From the NCBI RefSeq assembly GCF_040958095.1, contig NC_091175.1, positions 22,548,683 to 22,612,682 of the forward strand: DNA of 64,000 nt. The letters run 5' to 3'. The notes under the pieces were generated by a model. It was given only the letters and a program-made list of their open reading frames with translations, was not told the DNA's origin and searched no databases. The translations under genes were made by a program, and so were the position numbers. Positions within the stretch are counted from its first letter, which is position 1; every line of letters begins with the position of its first letter. Shown here one piece after another: positions 4,993 through 57,076 of the stretch. This DNA is from Procambarus clarkii (Eukaryota; Arthropoda; Malacostraca; Decapoda; Cambaridae).

Positions 4993-5672
4993 GTTGCTTG
5001 CGTAACTGCTTCGTGAATCTGGCCCCAGGTTCGCAAATGCTTGCGTAACTGCTTCGTGAATCTGGCCCCAGGTTTGTCAATGCTTGCGTAACTGCTTCGT
5101 GAATCTGGCCCCAGGTTCGCAAATGCTTGCGTAACTGCTTCGTGAATCTGGCCCCAGGTTTGTAAATGCTTGCGTAACTGCTTCGTGAATCTGGCCCCAG
5201 GTTCGTAAATGCTTGCGTAACTGCTTCGTGAATCAGGCTCCAGGTTCGTAAATGCTTGCGTAACTGCTTCGTGAATCTGGCCCCAGGTTTGTAAATGCTT
5301 GCGTAACTGCTTCGTGAATCAGGCCCCAGGTTCGTAAATGCTTGCGTAACTGCTTCGTGAATCTGGCCCCAGGTTCGCAAATGCTTGCGTAACTGCTTCG
5401 TGAATCAGGCCCCAGGTTCGTAAATGCTTGCGTAACTGCTTCGTGAATCAGGCCCCAGGTTCGTAAATGCTTGCGTAACTGCTTCGTGAATCTGGCCCCA
5501 GGTTCGTAAATGCTTGCGTAACTGCTTCGTGAATCAGGCCCCAGGTTCGTAAATGCTTGCGTAACTGCTTCGTGAATCAGGCCCCAGGTTTGTAAATGCT
5601 TGCGTAACTGCTTCGTGAATCTGGCCCCAGGTTTGTAAATGCTTGCGTAACTGCTTCGTGAATCAGGCCCCT
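4993..5672. repeat. 43-bp satellite made from FB-2 termini, about 16 copies
   Basis: The unit contains TGCTTGCGTAACTGCTTCGT, then GAATC(T/A)GGCCCCAGGTT and CGTAAA. It equals the terminal 43 bases of foldback element FB-2 (single-copy at 8084 and 8344). Variation is mainly T/A after GAATC and C/T after GGTT. Long reverse-strand frames here are repeat artefacts. Confidence 0.92.
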
Positions 5673-6085
5673 GGTGTTGAGGTCGGTGAGATGTGGAAAA
5701 AAAAATTCTCGCTTGCGTCACATGTGAACTGGTTCAAGGAATGTCTTGAACGACTCCTTGTTCGGCTGTAGGGAGTTAGTACACATGCCGACGGACCTCT
5801 CGGATGCCGATGATGGCACCCAGTTGGTGTGTGCTTCATGGAATAGCTTGGTGTGATATCCTCAGGTACTTTGTCCGATCTTAAGAGTGGTTTCCTGTCG
5901 CATTTTCAACGTTGTGGGCAAAATCGTCAGTCCACCGCGCCATCCTTCATTACATTGCATTTACTCTTGTTGAAATTTAACAACCACTTATTAGACGTTG
6001 ATATTATTCGTGTTGGTAATTTTCCCGTCGTGAAACATTGACAGGAAGTAGAATTTCCTTCCTAGATATAATTCATCTCGAGAAG
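5673..6085. other. No gene seen
   Basis: Mixed-composition sequence with no recognised feature. Confidence 0.35.
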
Positions 6086-7941: not shown

Positions 7942-8083
7942 ATTCATTTGATACATCACGCTATTGTGATTTCTGTGTGGAAATGGATAACATTTTGGGC
8001 TTTGTATATGTTGTATACATGTGAGTGACTGTCACTATGAAGTCGTAGTGTTGATATCACTATAGGTTTTAAACCCTGGTTTT

Positions 8084-8344
8084 GGGGCCAGATTTTTTGA
8101 AGCAGTTACGCAAGCACTTACGAACGTGTACATCTTCCCTCAATCTTTGACGGCTTTGGTTATATTTATTAAACAGTTTACAAGCATGAAAACTTGCCAA
8201 TCAACTGTTGTTATTGTTATAAACAGCCTCCTGGTGCTTCGGAGCTCATTAACTGTTTAGTAATTGTAAACCAAGCCGCCAAAGATTGAGAAAAGATGGA
8301 CAGGTTCGTAAGTGCTTGCGTAACTGCTTCGTGAATCTGACCCC
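8084..8344. mobile_element. Foldback element FB-2, uninterrupted copy
   Basis: Termini GGGGCCAGATT...GAAGCAGTTACGCAAGCACT and TAAGTGCTTGCGTAACTGCT...GAATCTGACCCC are inverted repeats. The arms extend inward through TGTACATCTT / AAGATGGACA and CAATCTTTGACGGCTTTGG / CCAAGCCGCCAAAGATTG, roughly 85 bp each. The central part holds GCCTCCTGGTGCTTCGGAGC. No coding capacity. This copy preserves the empty site (GTTTAGTA at 8255-8262) used by the hAT-like MITE in the second copy. Confidence 0.85.
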
Positions 8345-23702: not shown

Positions 23703-23931
23703 AATAGATAAATCCTGGACCTGCAAAGATTCATCCGATTGTTGGATAGTTCCAAACGTAGGTTTGTATGGGTATCAACAGGAACTGCCTCGTATAGGGC
23801 AGCACAAGCTATAGGCCTTCTGTAGTTAAAATGTTTCCGTCGTTTTTATCTGTTTAGTACCGAGACCTGATGTACTGAGGCGCTCTGGAATTATATTACC
23901 CTAAACGTCCTTAGTTGCTGCAGTCCTGGGC
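23703..23931. other. No gene seen
   Basis: Unrecognised sequence. Confidence 0.35.
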
Positions 23932-24704
23932 CCAGATTTACGAAGCAGTTACGCAAGTACTTACGAACCTGGGGCCAGATTCACGAAGCAGTTACGCAAG
24001 TACTTACGAACCTGGGGCCAGATTCACGAAGCAGTTACGCAAGCACTTACGAACGTGTACATCTTTCCTCAATCCTTGACGGCTTTGGTTACATTTATTA
24101 AACAGTTTACAAGCATGAAAACTTGCCAATCAACTGTTGTTATTGTTATAAACAGCCTCCTGGTGCTTCGGAGCTCATTAACTGTTTAGTACAGCCCGTC
24201 CTCCAAACAAAGATCCAAAAGTGATTCCATGCACCCGCCAAACCCCCTGTTTATGAATGAAAAGCGGTTTACACACGACTCACAACTGCTGACGTTCGAA
24301 CATATCCGGAACAAGTGCTTCACTGACGAATTTTGTTCGAACCACAACGCTATAAATGCTTCACCCACGTACTACAAATACAAATAATCGCCAACAGAAC
24401 CTAAACACCTAACCTAACCTATGCCTATATATACACAATATGCTAATATATTATAATATTAATTTATACTTGAGAAAATTCCCGTTTTGAATGAACAGCA
24501 TGTTGAAATTTATGAATGCGTCTGTGGGGTTGACCGCTGGATGTAATGGACTTGAGTCGAGGACGGGTTGGTTTAGTAATTGTAAACAAAGCCGCCAAAG
24601 ATTGAGAAAAGATATACAGGTTCGTAAGTGCTTGCGTAACTGCTTCCTGAATCTGGCCCCAGGTTCGTAAGTGCTTGTGTAACTGCTTTCGTGAATCTGA
24701 CTCC
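23932..24704. mobile_element. FB-2 copy with multiplied ends, split by a MITE
   Basis: The left terminal 43 bp (GGGGCCAGATTCACGAAGCA through ACTTACGAACCT) is present three times from 23932. The element body then follows as at 8084, and the right terminus is present twice (to 24704). The body is interrupted at GTTTAGTA by the hAT-like insertion 24192-24570. Outside that insertion it is collinear with the uninterrupted copy. Confidence 0.88.
24192..24570 (+). mobile_element. hAT-like MITE, copy B, with 8-bp target duplication
   Basis: 379 bp, starting CAGCCCGTCCTC and ending GAGGACGGGTTG, i.e. 12-bp terminal inverted repeats with one mismatch. GTTTAGTA flanks it at 24184-24191 and 24571-24578, and the empty target with a single GTTTAGTA exists at 8255-8262. 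Known family features, an 8-bp duplication and a CA(G) terminus, fit hAT. It has no transposase. Interior includes CCTAACCTAACC. Confidence 0.85.
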
Positions 24705-24966
24705 AGGTGTTTGTGATTGTATTTTATCTATCAGATTTGACATTGTCGCCAAAAGTGATTTGTACTGGAGAGCTTTTAGCGTTTTCCAGAGGTTATTGAG
24801 ACAACTGTGTCATTGTTCATTGACTGTATGTGGCGGTTCAAAGCGAGGTTTCGTGGTATCGGCGCCTCCAAGAGCTGCCATCTAGCGGTGGGATTTGCGA
24901 CTGGAGAGGCATATCTCACTGGGCTCAGAGCTACTTACTGTTCTGCCTAGTGTTAACGGTGGTTTG
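24705..24966. other. No gene seen
   Basis: Unrecognised sequence; a short open frame only. Confidence 0.35.
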
Positions 24967-26939: not shown

Positions 26940-27040
26940 TGGGGGTGTGGTCAACCTGGCTGGCTGTTGGACGCGGCTGCTCGCAGCCGGACGTATGAAT
27001 CACAGCCTGGTTGATCAGGTATTCTTTGGAGGTGCTTATC
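26940..27040 (-). mobile_element. LINE-2 ORF C-terminal fragment
   Basis: The reverse strand encodes RIPDQPGCDSYVRLRAAASN, identical to the C-terminus of the LINE-2 copy at 48590-48690. It breaks off at GAGGTGCTTATC and is joined directly to SINE-4. Confidence 0.75.
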
Positions 27041-29105: not shown

Positions 29106-29155
29106 TAACCTAGGGCCAGATTGACGAAGCAGTTACGCAAGTAATTACGAACGTG
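29106..29155. mobile_element. FB-2 terminus fragment
   Basis: CTAGGGCCAGATTGACGAAG, CAGTTACGCAAGTAATTACG, AACGTGTAAG match the FB-2 left end and stop exactly where the 23-bp array begins. Confidence 0.75.
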
Positions 29156-34191: not shown

Positions 34192-35275
34192 GTTCGAATA
34201 GTCGAGCCTTGGTCCCTGGCCGGACTCGAGGAGTAGAAGAACTACCGAAGTGACTCTGACGTATGAGTCACAGCCTGGTTGATCAGGTATCCTGTGGAGG
34301 TGCTTATCTAGTTATCTCTTGAACACTGTGAGGGGTCGGCCAGTTATGTCCCTTATGTGTAGTGGAAGCGTGTTGAACAGTCTCGGGCCTCTGATGGTGA
34401 TAGTTCTCTCTTGAACACTGTGAGGGGTCGGCCAGTTATGTCCCTTATGTGTAGTGGAAGCGTGTTGAACAGTCTCGGGCCTCTGATGGTGATAGTTCTC
34501 TCTTGAACACTGTGAGGGGTCGGCCAGTTATGCCCCTTATGTGTAGTGGAAGCGTGTTGAACAGTCTCGGGCCTCTGATGTTGATAGTTCTCTCTTGAAC
34601 ACTGTGAGGGGTCGGCCAGTTATGCCCCTTATGTGTAGTGGAAGCGTGTTGAACAGTCTCGGGCCTCTGATGTTGATAGAGTTCTCTCTTGAACACTGTG
34701 AGGGGTCGGCCAGTTATATCCCTTATGTGTAGTGGAAGCGTGTTGAACAGTCTCGGGCCTCTGATGTTGATAGTTCTCTCTTGAACACTGTGAGGGGTCG
34801 GCCAGTTATGCCCCTTATGTGTAGTGGAAGCGTGTTGAACAGTCTCGGGCCTCTGATGTTGATAGTTCTCTCTTGAACACTGTGAGGGGTCGGCCAGTTA
34901 TGTCCCTTATGTGTAGTGGAAGCGTGTTGAACAGTCTCGGGCCTCTGATGTTGATAGTTCTCTCTTGAACACTGTGAGGGGTCGGCCAGTTATGCCCCTT
35001 ATGTGTAGTGGAAGCGTGTTGAACAGTCTCGGGCCTCTGATGGTGATAGTTCTCTCTTGAACACTGTGAGGGGTCGGCCAGTTATGTCCCTTATGTGTAG
35101 TGGAAGCGTGTTGAACAGTCTCGGGCCTCTGATGTTGATAGTTCTCTCTTGAACACTGTGAGGGGTCTGCCAGTTATGTCCCTTATGTGTAGTGGAAGCG
35201 TGTTGAACAGTCTCGGGCCTCTGATGTTGATAGTTCTCCCTCAGAGTACCTGTTGCTCCTCTGCTTACTTGGTGG
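34192..35275 (-). mobile_element. LINE-2 C-terminal remnant containing a satellite
   Basis: The left part (to 34320) carries GACGTATGAGTCACAGCCTG and GTTGATCAGGTATCCTGTGG, matching the LINE-2 C-terminus. The right part after the array continues TCAGAGTACCTGTTGCTCCT as in the 48526 copy, then diverges at about 35275. Confidence 0.8.
34321..35242. repeat. 92-bp satellite, ten units, derived from LINE-2 coding sequence
   Basis: GAACACTGTGAGGGGTCGGC recurs at 34321, 34413, 34505, 34597, 34691, 34783, 34875, 34967, 35059 and 35151. The spacing is 92 bp except one 94-bp step that keeps GATAGAG. The reverse strand encodes RGPRLFNTLPLHIRG then ITGRPLTVFKREL, the LINE-2 C-terminal segment, over and over. 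Confidence 0.95.
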
Positions 35276-47610: not shown

Positions 47611-47778
47611 AAAGCTTGCCCTGTGTTCCATACCCCAACCTCTCATTTCACCTGGTCCTCTCCGTCATATTTACGGCTGAAATGAAAAAAAAACTCGATA
47701 AAAAAAAGGTTAATTACTCCCCACCAGCTGTTGTTAATTGGCAGCTGAATGATCACCTGTTGAACAGCTGCAGGTGTT

Positions 47779-48525
47779 GTGGCCCCCCTGCTGGTGTATA
47801 TATGTGGCCCCCTGCTGGTGTATATATGTGGCCCCCTGCTGGTGTATATATGTGGCCCCCTGCTGGTGTATATATGTGGCCCCCTGCTGGTGTATATATG
47901 TGGCCCCTGTTGGTGTATATATGTGACCCCTGCTGGTGTATATATGTGGCCCCTGCTGGTGTATATATGTGGCCCCTGCTGGTGTATATATGTGTCCCCT
48001 GCTGGTGTATATATGTGGCCCCCTGCTGGTGTATATATGTGGCCCCCTGCTGGTGTATATATGTGGCCCCTGCTGGTGTATATATGTGACCCCTGCTGGT
48101 GTATATATGTGGCCCCTGCTGGTGTATATATGTGGCCCCCTGCTGGTGTATATATGTGGCTCCCTGCTGGTGTGTATATGTGGCCCCTGCTGGTGTATAT
48201 ATGTGGCCCCTGCTGGTGTATATATGTGGCCCCCTGCTGGTGTATATATGTGTCCCCCTGCTGGTGTATATATGTGGGCCCCCCTGCTGGTGTATATATG
48301 TGGCCCCCTGCTGGTGTATATATGTGGCTCCCAGATGGTGTATATATGTGTCCCCTGCTGGTGTATATATGTGGCCCCTGCTGGTGTATATATGTGGCTC
48401 CCTGCTGGTGTATATATGTGGCCCCCTGCTGGTGTATATATGTGGCCCCCTGCTGGTGTATATATGTGTCCCCCTGCTGGTGTATATATGTGTCTCCCTG
48501 CTGGTGTATATATGTGTCCCCCTAC
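47779..48525. repeat. 24-bp minisatellite, left part (before LINE-2 insertion)
   Basis: Unit CTGCTGGTGTATATATGTGG plus CCCC (24 bp), or CCC (23 bp), with TGTCC, TGACC and GGCTCC variants. It contains the marker run GTGGGCCCCCC...GGCTCCCAGATGGTG (48268-48340) that also marks the right part, so both belong to one original array. Confidence 0.95.
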
Positions 48526-48944
48526 CTACCTTGAGGCTACCTTGAGGTGCTTCCGGGGCTTAGTGTCCCCGCGGCCCGGTCGTCGACCAGGCCTCCTGGT
48601 TGCTGGACTGATCAACCAGGCTGTTAGACGCGGCTGCTCGCAGCCTGACGTATGAGTCACAGCCTGGTTGATCAGGTATCCTTTGGAGGTGCTTATCCAG
48701 TTCTCTCTTGAACACTGTGAGGGGTTTGCCAGTTATGCCCCTTATGTGTAGTGGAAGCGTGTTGAACAGTCTCGGGCCTCTGATGTTGATAGAGTTCTCT
48801 CTCAGAGTACCTGTTGCACCTCTGCTTTTCAACGGGGGTATTCTGCACATCCTGCCATGTCTTCTGGTCTCATGTGGTGTTATTTCTGTGTGCAGGTTTG
48901 GGACCAGCCCCTCAATTATTTTCCACGTGTAAATTATTATGTAT
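48526..48944 (-). pseudogene. LINE-2 ORF C-terminus and 3' end
   Basis: The minus strand reads IIIYTWKIIEGLVPNLHTEI, then RMCRIPPLKSRGATGTLREN, SINIRGPRLFNTLPLHIRG, ITGKPLTVFKRELDKHLQRI, PDQPGCDSYVRLRAAAS. The 3' end reads GGCCTGGTCGACGACCGGGC and CACCTCAAGGTAGCCTCAAG, then GTAGGTAGG. It completes the ORF broken off at 50922. Direct repeats GTTCTCTCT lie at 48700-48708 and 48794-48802. Confidence 0.85.
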
Positions 48945-50921
48945 TATTATATACTGTGGGTTGGTTGGTGTAGTCGTCGTTGATCCTCCTCTACGGACAA
49001 CCCAACCCACAACTCGGTAGAGTGCTTATACTAGGAGATCACCCTTGGCGCTTCTGGCTCTTGGAGAGGGGCTCAACGTCACACGTTCAGGGGATGCGGC
49101 TCCAACACTTAGCCTCGTCGTCACGTGCACACACCCACTCGAGCCGCTGTGACTCCCCACTCTCTCCTTATGAGATATGATCTCCTCAATCCCCCTATGA
49201 CTTACTAGTATTACCTCCTACCCTGTCCACAGCAGTGGTTCATGGTTCTTTCTCTCTCTCTCTCTCCTTCTTTACTACCTCCTGGGAAGCCTCACTAGGA
49301 CAAGGGCAAACACCAGCAAATTGTAACACATTTACTGAACAAAGCACATACACGATACATACACACATCTAATAATAATGAATCCTATACTCTATAATAT
49401 CCAAATCAGGTTGCACTCCAATACCATCAGAACTCTATTATCAGCTTATCAAGTGGTATCCCAACTCCTGGTTCACCACCTGGTACTATTAACCTCCTCA
49501 AGTTGGTCAAGCCCACACACTGTTGCACCATCAGCAAGATAACATATATATATAGAAAACCAGCATTTGAATGCAATAACATATACCAGTATAAATGTTC
49601 ATTGATACTTCAATATAAGAAACTCCTTGACATAAGGATGCCAACAGTCACTCACCTCTCACTGCGTCTTGCACGCTACTGACAACCAAACACTATCAAC
49701 TCCCTATAAGTAATCCACCAGAACTTCCCCTTCCACCTCTGGAAGTTCACAACCCTAATATCCTTAGGTTCTTCCGGGCTTCACTACCAGGATCCTCTGC
49801 AGCTCCTCCAGGCTGCTATCATGAAGTTTCCTTGAGTAACTACGGTGCTTCACCCTTCTGTTAGGTTCTTCCACAGCTCTCTTGGCTGCTACACCACCTC
49901 TACAGAAGCACGTGACACTCCTCTTCACTGCTGCTTCTCCTCACAGCTCGAGGTCCTCTGCTCCACTACCTCGGAGTCTCATTAGCTACATCATCTGCTG
50001 GCTTCGAAGTTCTCAGCAACTTCTTCCCCAAAGAACAAACCTGCAACCCATCGACACTCCAATAAAATGTTCCCCTTTAACACATAAACAAAAATAACCA
50101 CACACTATGCTTGCCTCAAACCTCTATCTGTTCTCTACATACAGTGAGAGTGGACTCCCCCGTTTTGGGCGGGTCCATACTCCACCTCGCCTGGTGTCGG
50201 TCCTCACTCACTGGGAGGGTCTTCCTCCGTCAAGAGCCCGGCTCCCTCAGTCTTCCGCCAGCGCTCAGAGGGGGCGGACGTCGCTCCGTGTTCCTCCCTC
50301 TTCACTCTCCTATTTCAGGCTTTCTGCCTTATTAAAACATGTCTAACTTATACATAAACATTGCTACTGTCGCTGGGCACACGACCAAACTACAAGTAAT
50401 CACTATGAACTGGCGTTTATCGTGCTTACCACAGATTAATTGGTCGAGGGCGCTTTCCCTCTGACGGCGTCTGGTCAGGGCGCTCCACACAGCCCACAAT
50501 AATGCTTCTGGGCGATTTAATATCTGCTCGTCGACCAGGACTTGAGACCACAACGTTCCCAGCTCGATTCCACAGCTGGTACGTCCGCACACTTCTCTTC
50601 TCTTCGAGATATATCACTAGGGGTTCCCTTCTGGCGGGAGCTCAAACGGAGCGCGGCTTCCCCCTGCGATGTCTGGCACTCAAGTGAGGTCAAGGTCCTC
50701 CGGAAGCGAGCCTCACGCCTCCAGCAAAATGTCCACATCTCCTAGCCAGTCATTTATCTATTTTCTTCTGCATTGCCCATAATCTCAAACTGTTACACAT
50801 ATCCAACCAACTATTTTACATATGCGTTATCACCTCAATACTTGCTAGACCTTCTAGTTAGGTCAGGCTTGCTGAATAACTCTCAAGAAGGGAGACTCGT
50901 TTCTCCTGCAGGCTGAGATCA
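48945..50921. mobile_element. Insertion of about 2 kb inside LINE-2 (solo-LTR candidate)
   Basis: Separates codons RERY (minus strand, ending about 50922) from IIIYTWK (starting about 48944), which would be adjacent in an intact LINE-2. GTAT is present on both sides. On the minus strand the insert starts TGTTATGATCTC and near its end has CAACCCACA, i.e. TG...CA ends as in an LTR, but about ten extra bases (TATTATATAC) remain unexplained. No coding sequence was recognised. AATAAA at 50060. Confidence 0.6.
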
Positions 50922-53155
50922 TAACAGTATCTCTCCCGCCTGCGCTCAAGGGAGTACAGATTTAGGCTCTTTAGTCGGTCCCAGTAATTTAGATGTTTTA
51001 CTGAGTGGATTCTAGCAGTAAAGGATCTCTGCACGCTCTCTAGGTCAGCAATTTCTCCAGCTTTGAAAGGGGCTGTCATTGTGCAGCAGTACTCCACTCT
51101 AGATAGCACAAGCGTTTTGAAAAGTATCATCGGTATAGCATCTCTAGTGTGAAAAGTTCTTGTTATCCAACCTGTCATTTTTCTTGCAGTTGTGACGGCT
51201 ACTTTATTGTGTTCTTTAAAGGTAAGGTCTTCCGACATGAGTACACCCAGGTCCTTTACATTGCCTTTTCGTTCTATGTTATGATTTGCCTGCGTTTTGT
51301 ACGTGGTTCCTGTTTTTATGTTTTCAATTTTTCCGTAGCGCATGAGCTGAAACTTATCCTCGTTGAATACCATATTATTTTCTGTAGCCCATAGAAAGAC
51401 CTGATCAACATCTGATTGGAGGTTTGCCGTGTCCTCTATGTTGCCAACTCTCATGAAAATCCTAGTGTCATCTGCAAAGGATGATACAGTGCTATAGGTT
51501 GTGTTCTGGTCTATGTCCGATATGAGGATGAGAAAAAGTACTGGAGCAAGCACAGTACCCTGGGGGACTGAGCTCTTCACGGTTGATGGGCTGGATTTTA
51601 TTTTGTTGACTATTACACATTGGGTTCTGTCAGTCAGGAAATTGTAGATCCATCTGCCTATTTTCCCGGTAATTCCTTTTGAACGCATTTTATGTGCAAT
51701 AACACCATGGTCACATTTATCAAAAGCTTTTGCGAAATCTGTGTAAATTACATCAGCGTTTTGTTTGTCTTCCATAGCATCTAATGCCATATCATAGTGG
51801 TCCAGCAACTGCGACAGGCAAGAGCGCCCTGTTCTGAAACCATGTTGTCCGGGGTTATGGAGATGCTGTGATTCCATGTATTTTGTGATCTTACTTCTTA
51901 GCACTCTCTCAAAAATTTTTATGATGTGCGATGTTAGTGCTATCGGTCTGTAATTTTTTGCCTCTGCCTTATTTCCTCCTTTATGGAGTGGTGCTATCTC
52001 TGCTGTTTTTAGTATGTCAGGGATAACGCCAGTATCTAGGCTTTGTCTCCACAGAATGTGAAGGGCCTGCGATAGTGGTTTTTTACAGTTCTTGATGAAT
52101 ATGGAGTTCCAAGAATCCGGGCCTGGTGCAGAGTGCATAGGCATACTGTTTATGGCTTCTTCAAAATCTAGTGGGGATAGGGCGACGTCTGATATGTGAT
52201 TTGATGTTGGTATCATATCCATGAAAAATTCGTTTGGGTTATCAATCTTTAGTGCATTTAATGGCTCACTGAAAACAGAGTCGTACTGCTTCCTCAGTAA
52301 CTCGCTCATTTCTTTGTTGTCATCTGTGAAAGTTCCATCTCCCTTTCGCAGGGGCCCGATACTAGATGTGGTTTTTGATCTTGATTTTGCATAGGAGAAA
52401 AAATATTTTGGATTTCTCTCTATTTCACTGATGGCCTTTTGCTCTCTTTGCCTCTCCTGGGTTTTGTATGATTCTTGTAGCTTGAGTTCAATTGTTTCTA
52501 TTTCTCTACCTAACCTTCTTCGCCGTTCTTGAGATAGGGTGCGACTCTCAAGTTGTTCCGCGATTCGTTTTCTTCGCCTATATAAGGAACGACGTTCCCG
52601 TTCCAATCTGCATCTCTTTCTCTTTTTTCTTAGGGGTATGCGGTTTGAACGTATTTCTAGTGCTACTGAGCTTATTTTTTCCAGGCACTGGTTCAGGTTT
52701 GTAAATCCTAGCTGTTCTTCCCAGTTTATTTCTGTGAAGTCCTGGTTTATTTGCTCCCAGTTTATCCGTTTATTATTGAAGTTGAATTTGCTGAAATCTC
52801 CTCCACCGGGAATCTGGACTGGTTTTGGAGGTCCATTCCCCATGGTTGTCAGTACCTCAATTAAGTTGTGATCTGAGTAACAGGTATTTGTAATCATTAT
52901 GTTCCCGATCAACTCATCATTATTAGTGAAAATGAGGTCCAGCGTGTTCTCCTTCCTAGTTGGTTCTACTATTTGCTGGTTTAAGGCAAACCTATCGCAC
53001 ATCCGTAGCAGGTCATTTGCATGTGCCTGCTCATTTAGGCTACTTCCTGGTATTCTTTCTGATATTACTGTATTAGCCAGGTGCTTCCATTTCAGGTGCC
53101 GTAGGTTGAAGTCCCCAAGCAGGATGATGTTCGGAGCTGGATTTGTGAGGTTTTC
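50922..53155 (-). pseudogene. LINE-2 endonuclease (C-terminal part) and reverse transcriptase
   Basis: The minus-strand frame is open from the array junction at about 53155, beyond the first Met at 53002. It begins in the APE endonuclease (NIILLGDFNLRHLKW, LDLIFTN, YSDHNL), then a basic linker, then RT: APGPDSW, NYRPIALTS, QHGFRTGRSCLSQLLDHYD, DFAKAFDKCDHG, SVPQGTVLAPVLFL, FADDTRIF, DLGVLMS. The catalytic FADD is intact and there is no internal stop, so this is a young insertion. It is 5'-truncated in the endonuclease and loses its C-terminus at the insertion, where the frame runs into foreign sequence to a stop at 50858. Confidence 0.93.
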
Positions 53156-56100
53156 CTGCTGGTGTATATATGTGTCCCCCTGCTGGTGTATATATGTGTC
53201 TCCCTGCTGGTGTATATATGTGTCCCCTGCTGGTGTATATATGTGGCCCCCTGCTGGTGTATGTATGTGGCCCCCTGCTGGTGTATGTATGTGGCCCCCT
53301 GCTGGTGTATATATGTGTCCCCCTGTTGGTGTATATATGTGGCCCCTGCTGGTGTATATATGTGGCCCCCTGCTGGTGTATATATGTGGCCCCTGCTGGT
53401 GTATATATGTGGCCCCCTGCTGGTGTATATATGTGTCCCCCTGCTGGTGTATATATGTGGCCCCTGCTGGTGTATATATGTGGCCCCCTGCTGGTGTATA
53501 TATGTGGCCCCCTGCTGGTGTATATATGTGGCCCCTGCTGGTGTATATATGTGGCCCCCTGCTGGTGTATATATGTGGCCCCCTGCTGGTGTATATATGT
53601 GGCCCCTGCTGGTGTATATATGTGTCCCCCTGCTGGTGTATATATGTGGCCCCCTGCTGGTGTATATATGTGGCCCCCTGCTGGTGTATATATGTGGCCC
53701 CTGCTGGTGTATATATGTGGCCCCCTGCTGGTGTATATATGTGGCCCCCTGCTGGTGTATATATGTGTCCCCCTGCTGGTGTATATATGTGGCCCCTGCT
53801 GGTGTATATATGTGTCCCCCTGCTGGTGTATATATGTGGCCCCCTGCTGGTGTATATATGTGGCCCCCTGCTGGTGTATATGTGTCCCCCTGCTGGTGTA
53901 TATATGTGGCCCCTGCTGGTGTATATATGTGACCCCTGCTGGTGTATATATGTGGCCCCTTCTGGTGTATATATGTGGGCCCCCCTGCTGGTGTATATAT
54001 GTGGCTCCCAGATGGTGTATATATGTGTCCCCTGCTGGTGTATATATGTGGCCCCTGCTGGTGTATATATGTGGCCCCCTGCTGGTGTATATATGTGGCC
54101 CCCTGCTGGTGTATATATGTGGCCCCCTGCTGGTGTATATATGTGTCCCCCTGCTGGTGTATATATGTGTCTCCCTGCTGGTGTATATATGTGTCCCCCT
54201 GCTGGTGTATATATGTGGCCCTCTGCTGGTGTATATATGTGGCCCCTGCTGGTGTATGTATGTGGCCCCCTGCTGGTGTATATATGTGTACCCCTGCTGG
54301 TGTATATATGTGGCCCCTGCTGGTGTATATATGTGTCCCCCTGCTGGTGTATATATGTGGCCCTCTGCTGGTGTATATATGTGGCCCCCTGCTGGTGTAT
54401 ATATGTGGCCCCTACTGGTGTATATATGTGGCCCCCTGCTGGTGTATATATGTGGCCCCTGCTGGTGTATATATGTGTCCCCCTGCTGGTGTATATATGT
54501 GGCCCCTGCTGGTGTATATATGTGGCCCCCTGCTGGTGTATATATGTGGCCCCTGCTGGTGTATATATGTGTCCCCCTGCTGGTGTATATATGTGTCCCC
54601 CTGCTGGTGTATATATGTGGCCCCCTGCTGGTGTATATATGTGGCCCCTGCTGGTGTATATGTGTGGCCCCCTGCTGGTGTATGTATGTGGCCCCCTGCT
54701 GGTGTATATATGTGTACCCCTGCTGGTGTATATATGTGGCCCCTGCTGGTGTATATATGTGTCCCCCTGCTGGTGTATATATGTGGCCCTCTGCTGGTGT
54801 ATATATGTGGCCCCCTGCTGGTGTATATATGTGGCCCCTACTGGTGTATATATGTGGCCCCCTGCTGGTGTATATATGTGGCCCCTGCTGGTGTATATAT
54901 GTGTCCCCCTGCTGGTGTATATACGTGGCCCCTGCTGGTGTATATATGTGGCCCCCTGCTGGTGTATATATGTGGCCCCTGCTGGTGTATATATGTGTCC
55001 CCCTGCTGGTGTATATGTGTGTCCCCCTGCTGGTGTATATATGTGGCCCCCTGCTGGTGTATATATGTGGCCCCTGCTGGTGTATATGTGTGGCCCCCTG
55101 CTGGTGTATATGTGTGGCCCCCTGCTGGTGTATATATGTGTCCCCTGCTGGTGTATATATGTGGCCCCCTGCTGGTGTATATATGTGGCCCCCTGCTGGT
55201 GTATATATGTGGCCCCCTGCTGGTGTATATGTGTGGCCCCCTGCTGGTGTATATATGTGGCCCCTGCTGGTGTATATATGTGACCCCTGCTGGTGTATAT
55301 ATGTGGCCCCTTCTGGTGTATATATGTGGGCCCCCCTGCTGGTGTATATATGTGGCTCCCAGATGGTGTATATATGTGTCCCCTGCTGGTGTATATATGT
55401 GGCCCCTGCTGGTGTATATATGTGGCTCCCTGCTGGTGTATATATGTGGCCCCCTGCTGGTGTATATATGTGGCCCCCTGCTGGTGTATATATGTGTCCC
55501 CCTGCTGGTGTATATATGTGTCTCCCTGCTGGTGTATATATGTGTCCCCCTGCTGGTGTATATATGTGGCCCTCTGCTGGTGTATATATGTGGCCCCTGC
55601 TGGTGTATGTATGTGGCCCCCTGCTGGTGTATATATGTGTACCCCTGCTGGTGTATATATGTGGCCCCTGCTGGTGTATATATGTGTCCCCCTGCTGGTG
55701 TATATATGTGGCCCTCTGCTGGTGTATATATGTGGCCCCCTGCTGGTGTATATATGTGGCCCCTACTGGTGTATATATGTGGCCCCCTGCTGGTGTATAT
55801 ATGTGGCCCCTGCTGGTGTATATATGTGTCCCCCTGCTGGTGTATATATGTGGCCCCTGCTGGTGTATATATGTGGCCCCCTGCTGGTGTATATATGTGG
55901 CCCCTGCTGGTGTATATATGTGTCCCCCTGCTGGTGTATATATGTGTCCCCCTGCTGGTGTATATATGTGGCCCCCTGCTGGTGTATATATGTGGCCCCT
56001 GCTGGTGTATATGTGTGGCCCCCTGCTGGTGTATGTATGTGGCCCCCTGCTGGTGTATATATGTGTACCCCTGCTGGTGTATATATGTGGCCCCTGCTGG

Positions 56101-57018
56101 TGTATATATGTGTCCCCCTGCTGGTGTATATATGTGGCCCTCTGCTGGTGTATATATGTGGCCCCCTGCTGGTGTATATATGTGGCCCCTACTGGTGTAT
56201 ATATGTGGCCCCCTGCTGGTGTATATATGTGGCCCCTGCTGGTGTATATATGTGTCCCCCTGCTGGTGTATATATGTGGCCCCTGCTGGTGTATATATGT
56301 GGCCCCCTGCTGGTGTATATATGTGGCCCCTGCTGGTGTATATATGTGTCCCCCTGCTGGTGTATATGTGTGTCCCCCTGCTGGTGTATATATGTGGCCC
56401 CCTGCTGGTGTATATATGTGGCCCCTGCTGGTGTATATGTGTGGCCCCCTGCTGGTGTATATGTGTGGCCCCCTGCTGGTGTATATATGTGTCCCCTGCT
56501 GGTGTATATATGTGGCCCCCTGCTGGTGTATATATGTGGCCCCCTGCTGGTGTATATATGTGGCCCCCTGCTGGTGTATATGTGTGGCCCCCTGCTGGTG
56601 TATATATGTGGCCCCTGCTGGTGTATATATGTGGCCCCCTGCTGGTGTATATATGTGGCCCCTGCTGGTGTATATATGTGGCCCCTGCTGGTGTATATAT
56701 GTGGCCCCCTGCTGGTGTATATATGTGGCCCCCTGCTGGTGTATATATGTGGCCCCCTGCTGGTGTATATATGTGGCCCCCTGCTGGTGTATATATGTGG
56801 CCCCCTGCTGGTGTATATATGTGGCCCCCTGCTGGTGTATATATGTGGCCCCCTGCTGGTGTATATATGTGGCCCCCTGCTGGTGTATATATGTGGCCCC
56901 CTGCTGGTGTATATGTGTGGCCCCCTGCTGGTGTATATATGTGGCCCCCTGCTGGTGTATATATGTGGCCCCCTGCTGGTGTATATATGTGGCCCCCTGC
57001 TGGTGTATATATGTGGCC
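53156..57018. repeat. 24-bp minisatellite, right part, with 426- and 1351-bp higher-order repeats
   Basis: Same unit as 47779-48525, about 162 copies. Marker TGTGTACCCC occurs at 54285, 54711, 55636 and 56062, giving steps of 426, 925 and 426 and an overall period of 1351. The CCCAGATGG marker recurs with the same 1351-bp offset. The last 300 bases are uniform GGCCCC units. Frames up to about 1300 codons are artefacts of the stop-free unit in three phases. Confidence 0.96.
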
Positions 57019-57076
57019 CTCGTAGGGGTAGTCTCCTCTATCCTAACGGTTGTTTGGTTGTTAGCGTCTCAGCAAT

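Follow-up and report, generated by a model that had tools for sequence, protein, structure and literature searches.

The 92-bp tandem array examined here, from the crayfish Procambarus clarkii, is probably one copy of a dispersed, LINE-borne array that would have been founded by a duplication bounded by a short direct repeat, spread mostly by retrotransposition, and changed in unit number from site to site. We give this reading a probability of about 0.65. The array lies in a 64,000-bp stretch of DNA (C26:22548683-22612682), hereafter called the window. Satellites are often traced to mobile elements, yet the founding step is seldom visible. In this genome, a ladder of copies with zero, one, two and many units is present in the same register, and these copies, combined with a direct repeat at the array edges, the loss of an AG dinucleotide and a shared T39 mark, could allow the steps to be ordered. 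It thereby becomes possible to count, within one genome, the steps by which a satellite arises, spreads and builds up regionally.

The array and the unamplified copy in the window

TRF places the array at 34309-35238, with a period of 92, 10.1 copies and a 97% match. Its internal structure is defined by GTTCTCTCT, which occurs at 34403, 34495, 34587, 34681, 34773, 34865, 34957, 35049 and 35141, and by two outer copies carrying one mismatch each, GTTATCTCT at 34311 and GTTCTCCCT at 35233. These eleven copies enclose ten units, nine of the spacings being 92 bp and one 94 bp. The first-pass annotation had described ten units of LINE coding sequence, nine of 92 bp and one of 94 bp, in register inside a LINE remnant; the spacings and flanks bear this out, and its interval of 34321-35242 describes this array in a shifted register. 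LINE remnants adjoin both ends in the correct register, and the local LINE is truncated on both sides (Table 1). The junction of the 94-bp unit (G000:C26:22583355) is one of the exact AG-keeping tandem junctions counted below. Compared with the sampled arrays, that of the window is atypical, ending in a 92-bp unit and having its 94-bp unit in fourth place.

An unamplified copy of the LINE 3' end is also present in the window, and the interval 48523-48960 reads ...INIRGPRLFNTLPLHIRGITGKPLTVFKRELDKHL... on the reverse strand. GTTCTCTCT occurs in this copy at 48700 and 48794. Because the preceding A is common to both occurrences, the direct repeat that bounds the segment is 10 bp long, AGTTCTCTCT, rather than the 9 bp first proposed, and the proposed separation of 94 bp holds. 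The 419-bp copy contains two separate 10-bp direct repeats, the other of which is located in the CTACCTTGAGG tail. Among 5,000 dinucleotide shuffles of the copy, some 10-bp direct repeat appeared in 503, and one with a spacing of 90-96 in 12. Thirty left-junction copies were retrieved from C1, and many of them extend beyond the point matching 48944. One window can mislead in this respect: a single-unit copy is found beside an array, though the array most likely came from elsewhere.

Table 1 LINE-related features of the window (positions within the 64,000-bp stretch)
Feature	Position	Strand	Remarks
Further LINE fragment, left part only, 95%	26962..27040	-	Ends immediately ahead of the repeat region
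Left-hand LINE remnant adjoining the array (3' side of the LINE)	34256..34310	-	Ends at the direct repeat
Ten-unit array, nine units of 92 bp and one of 94 bp	34311..35232	-	C-terminal part of the LINE coding sequence; coding sense on the minus strand
Sole 94-bp unit of the array	34587..34680	-	Ends TTGATAGA, then GTTCTC
Right-hand LINE remnant adjoining the array (5' side of the LINE)	about 35233..35266	-	Begins with GTTCTCCCT
Unamplified single-unit LINE 3' end	48526..48944	-	State shared with the 30 left-junction copies retrieved from C1
10-bp direct repeat AGTTCTCTCT, first copy	48699..48708	.	
10-bp direct repeat AGTTCTCTCT, second copy	48793..48802	.	94 bp further on

Sequence comparison identified the array monomer as a segment of LINE coding sequence. 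A longer single-unit genomic copy (L053) encodes an RVT_1 domain upstream (E 3.3e-27), and the best solved relatives of its reverse transcriptase include LINE-1 ORF2p and R2 proteins, indicating that the element is a non-LTR retrotransposon; LINE-2 is the putative clade assignment of the first-pass annotation. A Pfam search with the short LINE end alone returned no LINE family, and viral contigs scanned for the pattern contained 0 matches.

Genome-wide distribution of the junctions

The assembly scanned comprises 4.03 Gb in 2,308 contigs. Genome-wide counts refer to exact patterns unless stated otherwise, so diverged copies are undercounted. The tandem junction, TTGATA-N0-2-GTTCTCTCTTGAACACTGTGAG, occurs 11,814 times, and its reversed control 0 times; AG is kept in 69 of these junctions. 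Left junctions into the unit number 7,922, and right ends without AG 1,341. When up to 3 mismatches to the T39 unit were allowed, the last unit was 94 bp long in 717 matches and 92 bp in 597, distributed over many contigs. The array itself is present in the hundreds of copies or more. The exact zero-unit form, which is the expected deletion product, was found once, so exchange at the repeat looks rare.

Exact single-unit copies fall into several classes. AG is lost and C39 present in 98, AG is lost and T39 present in 35, and AG is kept with T39 in 56. The figure of 98 covers only the 0-mismatch cases out of 1,055 pattern matches; these 1,055 single-copy matches and the 7,229 left-end matches were not used as counts, because internal units fit both patterns within 3 mismatches.

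Anatomy of the sampled copies

Twenty-five arrays with a right flank were counted, of which 18 came from C1:16.6-19.8 Mb, six were picked for an AG-keeping junction, and one was that of the window. The sample is thus biased, and single-unit copies were found through an exact left junction. The 27 single-unit copies consist of 26 fetched copies and the one in the window, with L047, L062, L071 and L072 excluded. Four further array-bearing copies (L042, L079, L082 and L085) have no right flank in the fetched stretch and stand outside the 25, and L083 overlaps L045. Unit tallies leave out units outside 80-100 bp and partial first units. Right-flank matches that begin past position 6 or fall below 85% identity were pre-filtered, and no array was seen adjoining such matches.

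Copies with a single unit, two units and many units, which the first-pass annotation had proposed to look for in LINE context, were all found. Among the first 30 left-junction loci, all in C1:1.3-15.7 Mb, none has a second unit; 28 reach the right flank and two end inside the unit. Arrays appear at four later loci among the 100 left junctions listed (L035, L037, L043 and L044). The arrays sit in place within dispersed copies of the element, and array right ends are found on many contigs. Unit number in the 25 arrays ranges from 2 to 43, the longest array extending over about 4 kb. Both LINE flanks are in register in 14 arrays and the right flank alone in 11; in several of these 11 the array is interrupted within a unit or by the limit of the fetched stretch. 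Wherever a LINE flank is kept, the array edge falls on the direct repeat, as had been anticipated: the flank meets the array at position 172-176 at all 14 left edges and at position 1-3 at all 25 right edges.

The usual sampled form is a run of 92-bp units followed by one 94-bp unit, and L035 consists of exactly one of each. The last unit, adjoining the right flank, keeps GATAGAG or GATAGGG in 19 of the 25 arrays, a larger majority than that of the 94-bp last units genome-wide; in L084 the last unit is 90 bp long and ends in ATGATA. AG is lost in 153 of the 168 non-terminal units. T39 is carried by 127 of these 168 units, by 17 of the 25 terminal units and by 0 of the 27 single-unit copies. 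AG loss is likewise absent from all 27 sampled singles, and the rarer single-unit copies elsewhere in the genome do have these marks. Every one of the 25 arrays, across different contigs, contains at least one AG-lost unit and at least one T39 unit. Two arrays, L084 and L081, are composed mostly of 94-bp units, and both also hold AG-lost and T39 units.

Units are about as alike within arrays as between them, with an identity of 96.6% within (1,443 pairs) against 96.8% between (17,085 pairs). When averaged per array, identity is 97.4% within arrays and 97.1% for neighbouring units; these averages are slightly above the between-array figure, and some local homogenisation is possible. The occurrence of AG-lost and T39 units in all 25 arrays, taken with the similar identities, argues that the arrays share an ancestor and spread recently, with little homogenisation at individual sites.

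Proposed founding of the array lineage

In the proposed course of events, a LINE copy would have suffered a tandem duplication of 92-94 bp between the two 10-bp direct repeats at its C-terminal coding end. Slippage, unequal exchange or reverse-transcriptase template jumping could each have produced this duplication, and the three would look alike here. The first-pass annotation had likewise placed a founding duplication at the direct repeat. The edges agree with that breakpoint; the part that is not supported is the window as the place of founding, given a junction that occurs 11,814 times. Its account of nine local units losing AG is not supported either, as AG loss and T39 are common to arrays on different contigs.

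The register and the direct repeat are exact in the window, as they would be if a single duplication had founded the array there and nine units had subsequently lost AG. This local origin is nonetheless very improbable, and we reject it: the junction is dispersed and keeps AG in only 69 cases, the marks of the window array recur in arrays on other contigs, within-array identity about equals between-array identity, and the window's LINE remnant is truncated on both sides. The window array is probably a truncated, rearranged descendant and not the birthplace. The 10-bp repeat could instead act as a hotspot, with many independent foundings in separate LINE copies. Such recurrence would suit the arrays of mostly 94-bp units (L084 and L081) and the flank tree, where L035, L043, L044 and L080 are placed among single-unit copies, albeit at weakly supported forks. 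We nevertheless consider repeated founding quite unlikely, because all 25 arrays, including L084 and L081, hold AG-lost and T39 units, and because the reciprocal zero-unit product is represented by one exact copy against 7,922 left junctions.

The flank tree comprises the 40 rows in which both flanks were sufficiently represented: 26 single-unit, 13 array and 1 zero-unit. Arrays cluster in it (4 changes, where shuffling gives a mean of 11.2) without forming one clade, and the well-supported branches force only 1 change for the 13 array rows. Conversion or template switching may have transferred arrays from one LINE copy to another. Our interpretation is a single array lineage whose copies have, to some extent, exchanged arrays or flanks.

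Two orders of events can be envisaged for this lineage. In the first, duplication of a 94-bp unit in the 10-bp repeat preceded the loss of one AG of AGAG from the first copy. In the second, AG was lost from a single copy, which was then duplicated at the same repeat, by that time 92 bp apart, and the 94-bp last unit would have been gained through later exchange. The terminal 94-bp units favour duplication before AG loss, whereas the AG-lost C39 singles keep the reverse order viable. For the 92-bp junction itself, founding through a 2-bp homology (AG against AG) fits as well as founding at the 10-bp repeat with the loss of one AG.

Collapse of arrays was also considered as the sole source of the AG-lost singles and was rejected. 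T39 is present in 35 of the 133 exact ones, as against 127 of the 168 non-terminal units, and this excess of C39 indicates that they are not the result of simple array collapse alone.

Spread and change in unit number

Homology to the LINE 5' of the array ends at different points in different copies, for example at 108, 127, 152, 195, 220 and 300 bp beyond the right edge; in others it continues for more than 500 bp. Among the 12 array copies that could be compared (12 of the 25), the 3' flank is shared by only two pairs, and the LINE 3' tail is kept in several array copies. Varied 5' end points, mostly unshared 3' flanks and retained 3' tails are the pattern left by 5'-truncated retrotransposition. 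The array-bearing lineage would thus have reached its many sites most likely by retrotransposition, with the machinery presumably supplied in trans. Unit numbers would then have grown and shrunk at each site, giving the 2 to 43 units of the sample, plausibly by later unequal exchange.

Copying between sites could also have proceeded at the DNA level, through segmental duplication, ectopic gene conversion or circular DNA, and regional concentration speaks for it. The interval C1:16.62-16.90 Mb accounts for 89 of the first 100 junctions listed and contains inverted pairs and shared flanks. On C1 up to 19.84 Mb, none of 14 array loci lies below 16.62 Mb, compared with 34 of 43 array-free left-junction loci (Fisher p 1e-7); these loci were merged and counted by hand from the junction listings, and the p value is too small because several of the 34 array-free loci share flanks and are not independent. 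Within the duplicated blocks of C1:16.6-19.8 Mb, flanks are shared by L036 and L039 and by L037 and L038. DNA-level copying is therefore also taking place in C1:16.62-16.90 Mb. However, 5' extents differ and 3' flanks are unrelated among the other array copies, several of which retain the LINE 3' tail, so that DNA-level copying appears rather unlikely as the general explanation, and retrotransposition remains the preferred main route.

The region G000:C1:16620500-16898500 (L031-L039) is a dense cluster of array-bearing LINE copies, arranged as inverted pairs about 1-1.5 kb apart and as duplicated blocks.

A second array in the same LINE

A 32-bp unit, also tandemly repeated, was read in the reverse-transcriptase region, at a distance of about 760 bp from the 92-bp array on its 5' side; the coding strand there specifies SPQGTVLAPV. 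It is tandem in nine of the ten sampled array-bearing copies that span the site, with 3 to 20 copies (carriers include L032, L033, L034, L036, L037, L038 and L039), and in only one of 16 single-unit copies, which has two. The association with the 92-bp array gives a Fisher p of 3e-5, or 5e-4 after likely duplicates were merged by judgement. All nine copies with the 32-bp array are located in C1:16.67-16.90 Mb, and the only array copy outside this interval that spans the site, L043, has a single 32-bp unit; the 32-bp array may thus mark the C1 cluster and not the whole lineage.

The founding junction of the 32-bp array was read as having about 1 bp of homology, indicating that a long direct repeat is unnecessary for an array to start. 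Neither 32 nor 92 is a multiple of 3, and the frame is shifted in seven of the nine sampled 32-bp arrays, so most two-array copies could presumably not make an intact protein. We tentatively suggest that a LINE lineage carrying both the C-terminal 92-bp array and the 32-bp array of the PQGTVLAPV region might propagate non-autonomously as a VNTR-bearing element, seeding satellites where it lands. If so, this lineage would be the LINE counterpart of SVA elements.

Comparison with known systems

Satellites derived from retrotransposons are already known, and the crayfish case adds unusually complete intermediates. The closest parallels, given here as described in the portions of each source that were drawn on, involve both LTR and non-LTR elements. 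In Lathyrus sativus, satellites have arisen from internal tandem repeats of Ogre LTR retrotransposons (Vondrak et al. 2019, PMC7004042). As in the crayfish LINE, short arrays reside inside a dispersed retrotransposon, some of them expand, and the expanded ones are regionally concentrated. Ogre is, however, an LTR element with its repeats in the 3' UTR, whereas the crayfish repeat is coding sequence of a LINE, with a direct repeat at its edges (PMC7004042).

Satellites related to LINE ORF2 include chicken HinfI (CR1) and Phodopus PROsat and seal Pvc 20 (both LINE-1), according to the part of the review considered (PMC9659126). Their monomers, like that of the crayfish array, are related to the coding sequence or 3' end of a LINE; as reviewed in that part, they come with neither a unit ladder in dispersed LINEs nor a shared founding breakpoint (PMC9659126). 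The ape SVA and LAVA elements are VNTR-containing composite retrotransposons whose unit number changes by a microhomology-driven mechanism, as set out in the portion cited (PMC4432496). They resemble the crayfish element in being non-LTR retrotransposons with an internal tandem array of variable length. They differ in that they are composite and their mobilisation by LINE-1 has been demonstrated, whereas the crayfish array derives from the element's own coding end and would presumably be mobilised in trans (PMC4432496).

Crayfish satellitome studies describe genomes rich in minisatellites of less than 100 bp (PMC13130569, PMC7859515). The term '92 bp' is absent from their main texts, and no LINE-derived family is named in the passages considered here.

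Other repeats in the window

The 24 TRF arrays picked, with periods of 13-92, together occupy 22,887 of the 64,000 bp of the window. The sequence that follows the further LINE fragment at 26962-27040 is one that we take to be a tRNA-like SINE.

Arrays with a 43-bp unit are located at 4995-5675, 23925-24054 and 24617-24708, with single copies at 8083-8128, 8301-8344 and 29107-29155. Their sequence corresponds to the inverted ends of a short, palindromic element of MITE-like structure whose two ends lie at 8083-8344, and they are another case, in the same window, of an array formed from the end of a likely mobile element.

Within a 24-bp array at 53155-57019, the pattern of variants recurs at an offset of 1,351 bp (e.g., 53933/55284 and 54663/56014), suggesting that part of the array has undergone a large duplication. 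A further array of this 24-bp unit, at 47778-48523, adjoins the unamplified LINE copy.
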